Below, piece after piece: positions 691 to 57,019 of a DNA stretch of 64,000 nucleotides. Below the pieces are notes generated by a model. It had not been told where the DNA came from and made no database searches. It was given only the letters and a program-made list of their open reading frames with translations. The first letter of the stretch is position 1; every line of letters starts with the position of its first letter. The stretch comes from Gammaproteobacteria bacterium. GTDB lineage: Bacteria; Pseudomonadota; Gammaproteobacteria; Tenderiales; Tenderiaceae. A program made the position numbers and the translations under genes. Location of the stretch: the NCBI GenBank assembly GCA_016200485.1, contig JACQEP010000004.1, positions 186,001 through 250,000 of the forward strand, in the 5' to 3' direction.

Positions 691-788
691 AAAATCTAAC
701 GCAGAGACGCAAAGACGCGGAGAAAAGCAACTCAAGGGCTGAATCTTTCTAACATCTCTGCGTCTTTGCGCCTCCGCGTCGGATTTTT
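691..788. repeat. inverted-arm dispersed repeat R1 (CGCRRAG type)
   Basis: Two inverted purine/pyrimidine arms, about 691-726 (AACGCAGAGACGCAAAGACG core) and about 755-788 (TCTCTGCGTCTTTGCGCCTC core), separated by about 28 bases. Each arm is built from degenerate 8-9-base units of the form RCGCRRAG. It fills the ribD-ribE gap and produces a false N-terminal extension of ribE. Related copies are at 1927, 11986, 29876, 31048, 32211 and 55096. Confidence 0.85.
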
Positions 789-1926: not shown

Positions 1927-2142
1927 AAAAAATTCCAACGCTGAGGCGCAAAGACGCAGAGAAAACCCAGGTAAAAGAAAAAATGGGACTTCAATTTGGC
2001 ATCTCACCGAACTGTTGACACTCCAGCTTTGTTAGCATGTTATCTTGCAAGCGCGTTCTCAGGAGAAAATTTAAAATACACCAATGCACGCGACCACTCT
2101 GCATTAACTCCGCGTCTCCGCGTCTCCGCGTTGGATTTTTTC
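1927..2142. repeat. inverted-arm dispersed repeat R2
   Basis: Left arm about 1927-1966 (TTCCAACGCTGAGGCGCAAA start) and right arm about 2107-2142 (ending in CGCGTTGGATTTTT), opposite in orientation, with a spacer of about 140 bases that contains no gene I can support. The right arm runs into the 3' end of nrdR and supplies its last codons. Confidence 0.85.
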
Positions 2143-11985: not shown

Positions 11986-12116
11986 AAAATCCAACGCGGA
12001 GGCGCAGAGGCGCGGAGAAGAGCCAATGCTTGGGGGATCATTGAAGCCACAGGGCAGGTATCAACGAACCGTTTATTTTGGAGTTTTTCCTCTGCGCCTC
12101 CGCGTTGGATCTTTAA
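11986..12116. repeat. inverted-arm dispersed repeat R3
   Basis: Left arm about 11986-12022 (AAATCCAACGCGGAGGCGCA start), right arm about 12085-12116 (ending CTCCGCGTTGGATCTTT). The arms are nearly exact reverse complements of the family consensus and are separated by about 60 bases. Between queA and the tRNA-Leu promoter. Confidence 0.87.
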
Positions 12117-29875: not shown

Positions 29876-29943
29876 AGAACCGCAAAAGCCGCAAAGTAAA
29901 AAATTGTTTCTACTTTGCGTTACGTTGCGGCCTTCGCGGTAAA
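29876..29943. repeat. inverted-arm dispersed repeat R4 (CCGCAAAG subtype)
   Basis: Left arm about 29879-29901 (AACCGCAAAAGCCGCAAAGT), right arm about 29910-29943 (TACTTTGCGTTACGTTGCGG onward). A short loop of about 8 bases makes this the most compact copy. Its wording is nearer to R5 than to the CGCGGAG copies. Lies between leuB and asd. Confidence 0.8.
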
Positions 29944-29949
29944 CAGCCT

Positions 29950-31026
29950 TTAAACCCGTAACGCCGCCACCACAGCGTCACCCATGCCGCAGGTACCTAT
30001 CTTCCTGGTGCCCTCGGTATAAATATCCCCGGTTCGATATCCCTGCCCTAACACCTGCTTAACCGCGTTCCGGATCCAATCCGCCAATGCAAGCTCATTC
30101 AAAGAATAGCGCAACATCATCTCTACCGACAGAATCGTGGCCAGTGGATTGGCAATATTTTTACCGGCAATGTCCGGCGCCGAGCCGTGGATTGGCTCAT
30201 ACATACCCTTATTATTCTGGTCCAAGGAAGCAGACGGCAACATGCCGATGGAACCCGTCAGCATAGAAGCCTCATCCGACAGAATGTCACCGAAGATATT
30301 ACCGGTCACAATCACGTCAAACTGCTTCGGATTGCGTATCAACTGCATCGCCGCGTTGTCGACATACATGTGCGACAACTCAATCTGTGGATATTCCTTG
30401 GCAACGTCGATCACAACTTCTTTCCACAACTCGCTGCACTCCAAGACATTGGCCTTTTCGACCGAACACAGCTTCTTGTTACGCTTCATCGCACTCTTGA
30501 AGGCGACATGGGCGACACGCCGCACCTCAGATTCCGAATAAAGCATGGTATTAAATCCAACGCGCTCACCATTGCGCACTTCAATGCCACGCGGCTGACC
30601 GAAATAAATATCCCCCGTCAGTTCACGAACAATCATGATGTCGAGTCCAGCCACCACTTCCGGCTTCAGTGTCGAGGCATCTGCCAACTCAGGATACAAA
30701 AATGCCGGTCGCAGATTGGCAAACAGATTCAGTTCCTTGCGGATGCGCAACAAACCACGCTCCGGCCGTTTGTCGCGAGGCAAGGTATCGTATTTCGGGC
30801 CACCGACGGCACCGAGCAACACCGCGTCTGCCTGCTTGGCCAGCTTCAATGTTTGCTCTGGCAAGGGATCAGCAGCGGCATCGTAACCCGCGCCGCCAAT
30901 GGGCGCCTCTTCCAGCTCGATCTTCAAACCGTAATCAGCACTCAGGCATTTCAACACCTTCACTGCCTCGGCGACAATCTCCGGGCCGATGCCGTCACCG
31001 GGTAGTACAGCTATCTTTTTGGTCAT
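29950..31026 (-). CDS. leuB: 3-isopropylmalate dehydrogenase
   Basis: Oxidises and decarboxylates 3-isopropylmalate to 2-oxoisocaproate with NAD, the third leucine-specific step. From the ATG at 31026 the protein has 358 residues and starts [18 protein letters not shown]; a TTG four codons upstream is less likely. Seen: [14 protein letters not shown], the catalytic Lys-Asp region ([19 protein letters not shown]) and [14 protein letters not shown] for the cofactor. Separated from leuD by the GxxExxY element, which must be read through if leuCDB is still one operon. Confidence 0.97.
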
Positions 31027-31047
31027 ATTTTCTCTCAAAAATCATCA

Positions 31048-31493
31048 TAAACCGCGAAGGACGCAAAGGAACGCTAAGATTGCAGCTGATTCACAACCCG
31101 CTTCAAGCCATCCTTCATATGTTTTACATTAAAGTTAAGCAAAAAACCCAAACGATAATCTCCCAGCTTGAGATAACTCAGAAGCTGAGCCAAATGGATA
31201 TCAGTAATCTTATCTACCGCTTTCAGCTCCATTACAACGGCATCCGCAACCAGCAAATCGATCCGATATCCCACATCAAGTTTCAATCCATCATAATGCA
31301 CAGGCAAACCAACCTGGCGTTTCACATCCACTTGCTTAGCAAGCTCATAAGCCAAACATGCTTCATAGGCGCTTTCTAACAACCCAGGCCCCAATGCCGA
31401 ATGAACCTTAAATGCACAATCAAGAATAATTTTCCCAATCTTTTCTGCATTCATTTATTTTCCTTGGCGTTCCTTTGCGTCCTTTGCGGTTAA
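31048..31493. mobile_element. candidate full-length element R5: GxxExxY gene enclosed by inverted arms
   Basis: Left arm about 31048-31079 (starts AACCGCGAAGGACGCAAAGG) and right arm about 31461-31493 (starts TCCTTGGCGTTCCTTTGCGT) are inverted copies differing at about three positions. The single gene between them uses bases of the left arm for its stop and of the right arm for its ribosome-binding site. It sits between leuD and leuB. That it is mobile is inference; no target duplication was recognised. Confidence 0.6.
31074..31454 (-). CDS. GxxExxY protein (PD-(D/E)XK nuclease-like)
   Basis: 126 residues. The name-giving motif is G24-L-L-E27-S-A-Y30. After it come D66 in GYRID, E76-L-K78 in VVMELKAV, and Q90 with Y94 in QLLSYLK; together this is the D-ExK-QxxxY pattern of a PD-(D/E)XK nuclease core. 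The family (often annotated as a PD-(D/E)XK superfamily member) has no established role that I know of. AAGGAAAA precedes the ATG and lies in the repeat arm; the TAG stop is also in an arm. The metal-binding residues appear complete, so activity is possible. It may act on the repeats that flank it; that is inference. Confidence 0.9.
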   Translation of the reverse strand: MNAEKIGKIILDCAFKVHSALGPGLLESAYEACLAYELAKQVDVKRQVGLPVHYDGLKLDVGYRIDLLVADAVVMELKAVDKITDIHLAQLLSYLKLGDYRLGFLLNFNVKHMKDGLKRVVNQLQS

Positions 31494-31499
31494 TCGCTC

Positions 31500-32138
31500 T
31501 TAAGTAAACAACCAGGGCGCGACAACCTTACGCTTTGCTTCATAGGCCTTGATGTCATCCACATGCTGCAGAGTCAAGCCGATATCATCCAGACCATTTA
31601 ACAAGCAATGTTTGCGGAAGGCATCTACTTCAAAGGCAAATGATTCGCCGGACGGGGTAACCACCTTTTGATTAGGCAGATCGATTTCCAGACGGTAACC
31701 TTCGGTCTTTACCGTTTCTTTAAACAATTCATCTACCACCGTCGCAGAGAGCACAATCGGCAAAATGCCGTTCTTGAAACAATTATTGTAAAAAATATCG
31801 GCAAAACTCGGGGCAATGATACTCCGGAAACCGTAGTCTTCCAGCGCCCACGGCGCATGCTCACGCGATGAACCGCAACCAAAGTTATCGCGCGCCAGCA
31901 AAATCCTCGCACCCTGATAACGTGATTGATTGAGCACGAACTCAGGATTCAAGGGCCGCTTGCTATTATCCCTTCCCGGCTCGCCATGATCGAGATAACG
32001 CCATTCATCGAATAAATTAGGACCGAAACCAACACGTTTGATCGATTTCAAAAATTGCTTCGGAATAATGGCATCGGTATCGACATTCGGCCGATCCAGC
32101 GGTACTACCAAACTGTTAAGTGTTATAAATTTATTCAT
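31500..32138 (-). CDS. leuD: 3-isopropylmalate dehydratase, small subunit
   Basis: Partner of LeuC in the isomerisation of 2- to 3-isopropylmalate. 212 residues, normal length. Motifs: [17 protein letters not shown] near the N-terminus and the swivelling-domain loop [20 protein letters not shown]. It follows leuC after a gap filled by repeat R6. Confidence 0.97.
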
Positions 32139-32210
32139 ATCATTCGCCTTTCAAAACCCAACACGGACGAGCGCATGGATGCGCGAGGTAGGGCAACGCA
32201 TGGAGCGGTT

Positions 32211-32276
32211 GCCGAGACGCAAAGACGCAGAGAAACCCAGTTATAAATTCTTTGCGCCTCCGCGTTAGATCTTAGA
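32211..32276. repeat. inverted-arm dispersed repeat R6
   Basis: Left arm about 32211-32238 (GAGACGCAAAGACGCAGAGA core), right arm about 32249-32276 (TTTGCGCCTCCGCGTTAGAT core). Sits in the leuC-leuD gap and reaches the leuC stop codon. Confidence 0.8.

Positions 32277-55095: not shown

Positions 55096-57019
<1,924 letters not shown>

Follow-up and report, generated by a model that had tools for sequence, protein, structure and literature searches.

Several described systems share features with the insertion between leuD and leuB analysed here, in which a gene of the GxxExxY family lies between two inverted arms. The REP/REPIN palindromes and their RAYT enzymes are like it in that short intergenic palindromes occur in many gene-less copies, a few enzyme genes are flanked by the same palindromes, and copies also occur without the enzyme gene. 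The RAYT enzyme belongs to the HUH/Y1 tyrosine transposases, whereas the GxxExxY element encodes a predicted PD-(D/E)XK nuclease. The GxxExxY arms also differ in structure: tandem units make up 30-40 nt on either side of the gene, and these units diversify strongly between lineages. The first-pass annotation of this DNA had proposed the REP/RAYT analogy. It holds for the gene-less copies, for the pairing of an arm type with a paralog, and for gene-less copies that sometimes occur without the gene; it fails for the enzyme, which appears to be Cas4/RecB-like and not a transposase.

A second comparison is with the intervening sequence (IVS) of 23S rRNA and its S23p/23S_rRNA_IVP protein (PF05635). 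The Coxiella IVS is 428 nt long, with a 28-bp terminal stem and an S23p ORF; its origin is unclear, and it has been proposed to be a selfish element (PMC4990558). The IVS (PMC4990558) and the GxxExxY element have in common a total size of about 430-450 bp, inverted repeats of about 30 nt at the termini and a single small ORF of about 120 aa. Unlike the IVS, the GxxExxY element is intergenic (leuD-leuB) and not in a 23S rRNA helix, its ORF encodes a nuclease unrelated to S23p, and gene-less relatives of it abound. Terminal inverted repeats, gene-less derivatives and dispersed insertions are likewise features of MITEs and small insertion sequences, from which the GxxExxY element differs in having no DDE or HUH transposase, no target-site duplication that could be seen, arms made of tandem units, and a length of about 450 bp including the gene. 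The TAACTGA repeats of Beggiatoaceae are likewise tandem 7-mer units that lie in intergenic DNA at numerous loci; a regulatory role was proposed for them, and they are described as direct repeats (MacGregor 2015, PMC4679880), whereas the GxxExxY arms are inverted.

The comparisons reported below lead us to regard the leuD-leuB insertion as probably a mobile palindromic element of about 450 bp, in which two arms of about three tandem 7-9 nt units enclose the gene for a minimal Cas4/RecB-like nuclease that would recognize its own arms, cut at the ends of the element and mobilize gene-less copies in trans.

The element between leuD and leuB

The window, meaning the whole 64,000-nucleotide stretch of gammaproteobacterial DNA that was analysed, carries the minus-strand gene order leuC-leuD-element-leuB. 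The parts of the element are as follows.

31047..31494, minus strand: whole element, about 448 bp, between leuD (31500-32138) and leuB (29950-31038)
31047..31078, plus strand: arm at the gene's 3' end, ATAAACCGCGAAGGACGCAAAGGAACGCTAAG, with three tandem units CGCGAAG, CGCAAAG and CGCTAAG
31074..31454, minus strand: GxxExxY gene, 126 aa, predicted PD-(D/E)XK nuclease of Cas4/RecB/lambda-exonuclease type, with its stop codon within the arm
31463..31494, minus strand: arm at the gene's 5' end, ATTAACCGCAAAGGACGCAAAGGAACGCCAAG on the minus strand, overlapping the gene's ribosome-binding site

The arms are 32 nt each, lie 384 nt apart and are complementary at 29 of 32 positions (91%). This is the best 32-nt inverted match in 31000-31540; 200 dinucleotide shuffles gave a mean of 20.5 and a maximum of 26. 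Both arms follow one formula, AACC and then three tandem units, CGCRAAG-GA-CGCAAAG-GAA-CGCYAAG. The 126-aa reading frame, which runs on the minus strand from 31454 to 31074, is intact. Its stop codon (TAG, 31074-31076) and its AAGGA ribosome-binding site (approximately 31461-31465) both derive from the arms, which bears out the earlier claim that gene and repeats make up one unit.

The GxxExxY protein

To our knowledge, GxxExxY is a widely annotated family without a known function. One literature excerpt that mentions it is a call of a Cas4-like neighbour beside a reverse transcriptase, and that excerpt is not about palindromes. The window protein matches the family at 135.8 bits (TIGR04256 GxxExxY and PF13366 PDDEXK_3; cut-offs 35 and 22). 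These were the sole profile matches: neither a DDE nor a HUH/Y1 tyrosine transposase domain was detected, and PDDEXK_3 being the only profile family, the ORF had no S23/IVP match.

The PD-(D/E)XK residues that had been picked out from the single sequence, D66, E76, K78, Q90 and Y94, proved to be 90-99% conserved in 206 relatives. In an alignment of 63 proteins, H18, D66 and Q90 are invariant, and E76, K78 and Y94 are each present in at least 90%. In our reading, H18, D66, E76-x-K78 and Q90-x3-Y94 would form a RecB/Cas4 active site. An AlphaFold model built from the 63-sequence alignment (pLDDT 94) has a restriction-nuclease-like fold whose top match among solved structures is Cas4 SSO0001 (Foldseek E=8e-4; VIA Z=10.1 over 100 residues), followed by Cas4 Pcal_0546 and lambda exonuclease; no sequence-level relatives were found in the PDB. 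GxxExxY thus models as a minimal Cas4/RecB-type nuclease. It shares the fold and the H..D..ExK..QxxxY pattern with Cas4, RecB and lambda exonuclease, and differs from them in being only 126 aa long, in standing alone, in being encoded inside a palindrome, and in lacking the set of four iron-sulphur cysteines of Cas4 (the window protein has C13 and C33 only).

The median dN/dS over 41 pairs is 0.084, indicating strong purifying selection. Genomes carry 1-15 copies of the gene, and pseudogenes or broken copies are common in the same genomes. Such a pattern, in which the protein is strongly selected while copies often decay, is consistent with an element that persists by moving; a host function is also possible.

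A fold close to Cas4 and other defence-linked nucleases would also suit a solitary defence or toxin nuclease that acts on phage or plasmid DNA, with the arms as self-marking or regulatory sites. We consider this most improbable, since the gene has no partner genes, stands alone among housekeeping genes and has several paralogs per genome, and many gene-less arms have no evident role. Moreover, the 50,697 phage records and the viral contigs held no relatives and only 8 plasmid records had a match, a result on which a phage or plasmid vector was rejected as well.

Arms around GxxExxY genes in other bacteria

The first-pass annotation expected inverted arms at GxxExxY genes more often than at other genes. 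The flanks of GxxExxY genes were examined in 80 relatives sampled from Pseudomonadota, Planctomycetota, Verrucomicrobiota, Chloroflexota, Acidobacteriota, Bacteroidota, Zixibacteria, Gemmatimonadota and others. Arms were scored without reference to a motif, with a threshold inverted-repeat score of at least 14, and other ORFs on the same contigs served as controls. Inverted arms were present at 51 of 73 GxxExxY genes, in many phyla, and at 1 of 81 control ORFs (Fisher p=5e-22), and the expectation was thereby upheld. The lone control match is a gene flanked by two gene-less elements. Most of the GxxExxY loci below the threshold show, by eye, weaker arms of the same type, and an independent sample of 30 loci from the class of the window gave the same arm pattern.

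The layout is constant, with two or three tandem 7-9 nt units per arm that are inverted on the far side, and the units themselves vary by lineage (CGCAAAG, CACAGAG, CGCCAAG, CGCGACG, GCGGAGG, CGCAAAT, CACGGAA, CATTAAG and CGGATT; also CRCRRAG and CGCGAAT). Outside Bacteroidota, units often end in AAGG or GAGG and so resemble a ribosome-binding site; Flavobacterium units often end in AAGTTT, and ribosome-binding sites are little used there.

Genomes rich in the motif (at least 4 arm matches) make up 12 of 27 with a GxxExxY gene and 11 of 158 without one (p=4e-6). No GxxExxY gene could be detected in some arm-rich genomes, namely G137 with 106 matches (a complete 2.8-Mb genome), G092 with 50 and G067 with 21. 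In such genomes, either the gene has been lost and copies have been left behind, or another agent spreads the copies.

Turnover of occupants in intergenic gaps

Within the family, the leuD-leuB gap holds the element in the genome of the window, a gene truncated at its 5' end together with the right arm in G004, and a gene-less element of CGCAAAT type in G009. Neither gene nor gene-less element is present in seven further relatives (G001-G003, G005-G007 and G010), and the comparison returned no match from G008. The gap is therefore empty or otherwise occupied in relatives, and the insertion is not fixed, as the first-pass annotation had anticipated. The gap in three relatives (L116, L118 and L120) carries a further palindrome family, TGTAGGGTGGGTTA...AACCCACCCTACA, which suggests that this gap attracts several kinds of palindromic repeat.

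An operon gap in Geothrix was compared in 30 species, of which 29 were analysed after one unalignable locus (L424) was set aside. The gap is empty in 6 of the 29, where 21-23 bp with TAAAA|GGAG separate the stop codon from the ribosome-binding site. A GxxExxY element occupies it in 3 of the 29; the others have a remnant or a gene-less element, with at least 6 unit types. The flanks are mostly 87-97% identical. On a tree of these flanks, at least 17 changes of occupant are required, and the gene-bearing state appears in three separate lineages. A gap in Flavobacterium is also polymorphic, with differing occupants in sister species whose flanks are 92-95% identical. Judged from these alignments, the differences in occupant are turnover at the DNA level, and the gaps may be either insertion hot spots or sites of replacement by conversion. 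No target-site duplication was recognized at the empty Geothrix sites or around four composite copies in the genome of the window; the exact ends are ambiguous by a few bases. Gain, loss and exchange of the unit and of its gene-less relatives at intergenic sites are shown by this comparison of gaps.

The position of the arms, between stop codons and ribosome-binding sites, and their supply of the gene's ribosome-binding site and 3' hairpin could instead suggest host regulatory hairpins (terminators, attenuators or mRNA stabilizers) that are kept for their function and borrowed by GxxExxY genes as expression signals. Arms of this kind at just 1 of 81 control genes on the same contigs, slots that are empty in close relatives with intact gene order, and the wholesale change of arm sequence between sister species all make this explanation very unlikely.

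Arm type, protein type and gene-less copies

The genome of the window has three GxxExxY genes, one of them broken (contig C24, locus L003), and these have three arm types, CGCRAAGG, AACGCGGAGACGC and TCCGCGAATGAACGC. Gene-less inward-facing pairs were found for all three. By pattern searches, on which all element counts for this genome rest, the CGCRAAGG type of the window gene has about 13 clean gene-less pairs elsewhere in the genome, the second type has gene-less composites and five copies in the window, and the third has four gene-less pairs. The copies in the window, for which no strand is assigned, are listed here.

694..784: gene-less copy of the AACGCGGAG arm type (that of the C24 paralog), a clear inward-facing pair at 700-778
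1933..2136: gene-less copy of the AACGCGGAG arm type, a clear inward-facing pair at 1939-2130
11989..12110: gene-less copy of the AACGCGGAG arm type, a clear inward-facing pair at 11995-12104
29878..29940: degenerate gene-less copy of the window gene's arm type (AACCGCAAAAGCCGCAAAG ... CCTTCGCGGT), adjoining leuB
32213..32270: gene-less copy of the AACGCGGAG arm type, a broken copy at 32218-32264 whose left arm is interrupted beside another palindromic repeat
55102..55243: gene-less copy of the AACGCGGAG arm type, a clear inward-facing pair at 55108-55237

The first-pass annotation had counted six gene-less copies in the window with arms of the same general type as those of the gene. The number stands (four clear, one broken and one degenerate); the assignment needs correction, in that 5 of the 6 are of the type of the broken C24 paralog and only the copy at 29878 is of the window gene's type.

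Evidence that arms and proteins belong together came from 91 non-orthologous loci, among which the k-mer distance between arms tracks the distance between proteins (Mantel r=0.375, p=2e-4). The correlation persists under control for GC (r=0.378), and it is present within Flavobacterium taken separately (r=0.43, p=2e-4, 16 non-orthologous loci). Orthologous presence and host GC were rejected as its cause, because it persists without orthologous loci and under GC control; shared host or vertical descent could nevertheless account for part of it despite these controls. Proteins that are 77-79% identical occur in Pseudomonadota (L052), Desulfobacteraceae (L060) and Chloroflexota (L066) with arms in common to the outermost bases, which argues for transfer of the whole package, binning errors being possible in single metagenome contigs.

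Strict co-variation of the two arms inside each element was rejected for the genome of the window, where it is weak: paired arms resemble each other slightly more than do arms taken from separate elements (p=0.02 on 20 nt; no significant difference over positions 5-30). Taken over the genomes compared, gene and arms form a single unit across many phyla, the type of arm corresponds to the type of protein, and gene-less copies with these same arm types are dispersed in those genomes.

A second protein in the same architecture

The gene-less occupants of the Flavobacterium gap include other units, GTTTAA, AAGTTTC, CTAAGGTA and GTTATGAG. A guess that these are of S23/four-helix-bundle type prompted a search for PF05635 genes, which are present in all 22 genomes searched. 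Inverted tandem-unit arms (score at least 15) enclose 23 of 30 PF05635 genes, with the same unit classes as the occupants of the gap. The S23 genes outside rRNA (L328-L357) have arm units of their own, TTAGTGA, TAGAGTG, GTTTAATT and GGTTGAA. CRCNVAD units occur in 20 of 24 GxxExxY arm sets and in 0 of 25 S23 arm sets, the two groups coming for the most part from shared Flavobacterium genomes. In 43 of 49 cases the nearest arm is one of the same protein family (p=2e-4). Each of two unrelated small proteins thus has its own class of tandem-unit palindromes. In the genome of the window itself, two weak S23 matches were found, neither within arms. The first-pass annotation had further implied that such arms would not surround unrelated genes. 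Among control ORFs this is so, with 1 of 81, but S23/four-helix-bundle genes share the layout, with other units.

Two alternative explanations bear on these data. According to the first, GxxExxY and S23 genes are small passengers that happen to survive inside palindromes whose spread has another cause (host replication slippage, a reverse transcriptase or some other enzyme). The presence of two unrelated proteins in one architecture is consistent with this, as are the genomes that are rich in arms without a GxxExxY gene, and a nuclease alone is not obviously able to integrate DNA. Passengers would not be expected, however, to retain all catalytic residues and a dN/dS of 0.08; each protein family has its own class of unit, and arm type tracks GxxExxY sequence. 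We regard the passenger explanation as unlikely.

According to the second, the element is IVS-like and acts at the level of RNA: the arms would form a stem in the transcript that is cleaved by RNase III and is neutral in mRNA, and the protein would act on RNA or ribosomes. Its size, the terminal stem of about 30 bp and the ORF in the loop match the Coxiella IVS (PMC4990558), S23 genes outside rRNA have the same layout, and the element sits on the coding strand within an operon. Set against this, GxxExxY models as a DNA nuclease of Cas4/RecB type, and intergenic turnover is gain and loss at the DNA level. An RNA element is distinctly unlikely as a full account; it could explain how the insertion is tolerated but not how it spreads, and it may thus be complementary to the mobile element favoured here.

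A broader proposal is made tentatively, as a real possibility. Elements with tandem-unit arms and a protein of their own may constitute a class of bacterial mobile element with at least two unrelated kinds, one with the Cas4-like nuclease and CRCRRAG-type units and one with the S23 four-helix-bundle protein and other units. In each kind the protein would recognize its own units and spread gene-less copies in trans, the elements would account for a large share of intergenic palindromes in many phyla, and the 23S rRNA IVS would be one branch. The Coxiella IVS may be a member of the S23 kind that came to lie in rRNA.

Proposed mechanism

The comparisons support mobility of the GxxExxY element, and we infer that the enzymatic step is due to the protein itself, which would move, copy or bind the arms. 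The nuclease would recognize the units in its arms, probably during replication, when the palindrome extrudes as a hairpin on single-stranded or cruciform DNA; the tandem arrangement of units suggests that each arm is contacted at several points. By cutting at the element's termini the nuclease would start copying or excision, which host replication and repair would complete; the typical target would be intergenic DNA that separates a stop codon from the following ribosome-binding site. The nuclease would serve gene-less copies in trans; the number of gene copies is low relative to that of gene-less copies. The arms also furnish the ribosome-binding site and the 3' end of the gene. The upstream arm may be adapted to translation in the host, and the hairpin may render an insertion within an operon mRNA tolerable. 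We know of no PD-(D/E)XK protein that integrates DNA without a partner, and a nuclease that lacks a partner for strand transfer leaves a real gap in this mechanism.

No published description of such palindromes with a nuclease or a four-helix-bundle protein was found in the literature covered, outside which lie subscription papers and preprints, and the element kind is provisionally taken as undescribed so far. If the proposal is correct, GxxExxY proteins are the enzymes of a mobile element that, at about 450 bp, ranks among the smallest self-contained ones, and no independent element is known to be driven by nuclease chemistry of this type. The proposal would also account for a large and mostly ignored set of intergenic palindromes, provide a route for the turnover of operon spacers between sister species, and bear on the 25-year-old open question of the origin of the 23S rRNA intervening sequence.

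Nested and tandem arrangements

In the genome of the window, one arm type is nested within another in four composite copies (L008, L009, L013 and L033). At 32165-32215 of the window and at L033, L009 and L026, a further short palindromic repeat of another kind, CGAGCGCATGGATGCGCGAGGTAGGGCAACGCA...GGTTGCC, lies inside or beside gene-less arms, as if inserted. In G067 (L387, L388 and L397), palindromes of the CACAGAG/GxxExxY type are nested within palindromes of AAGTTCC type. Two identical GxxExxY copies stand in tandem, 699 bp apart, in Flavobacteriia bacterium 40-80 (L100 3001-4077 / L254).
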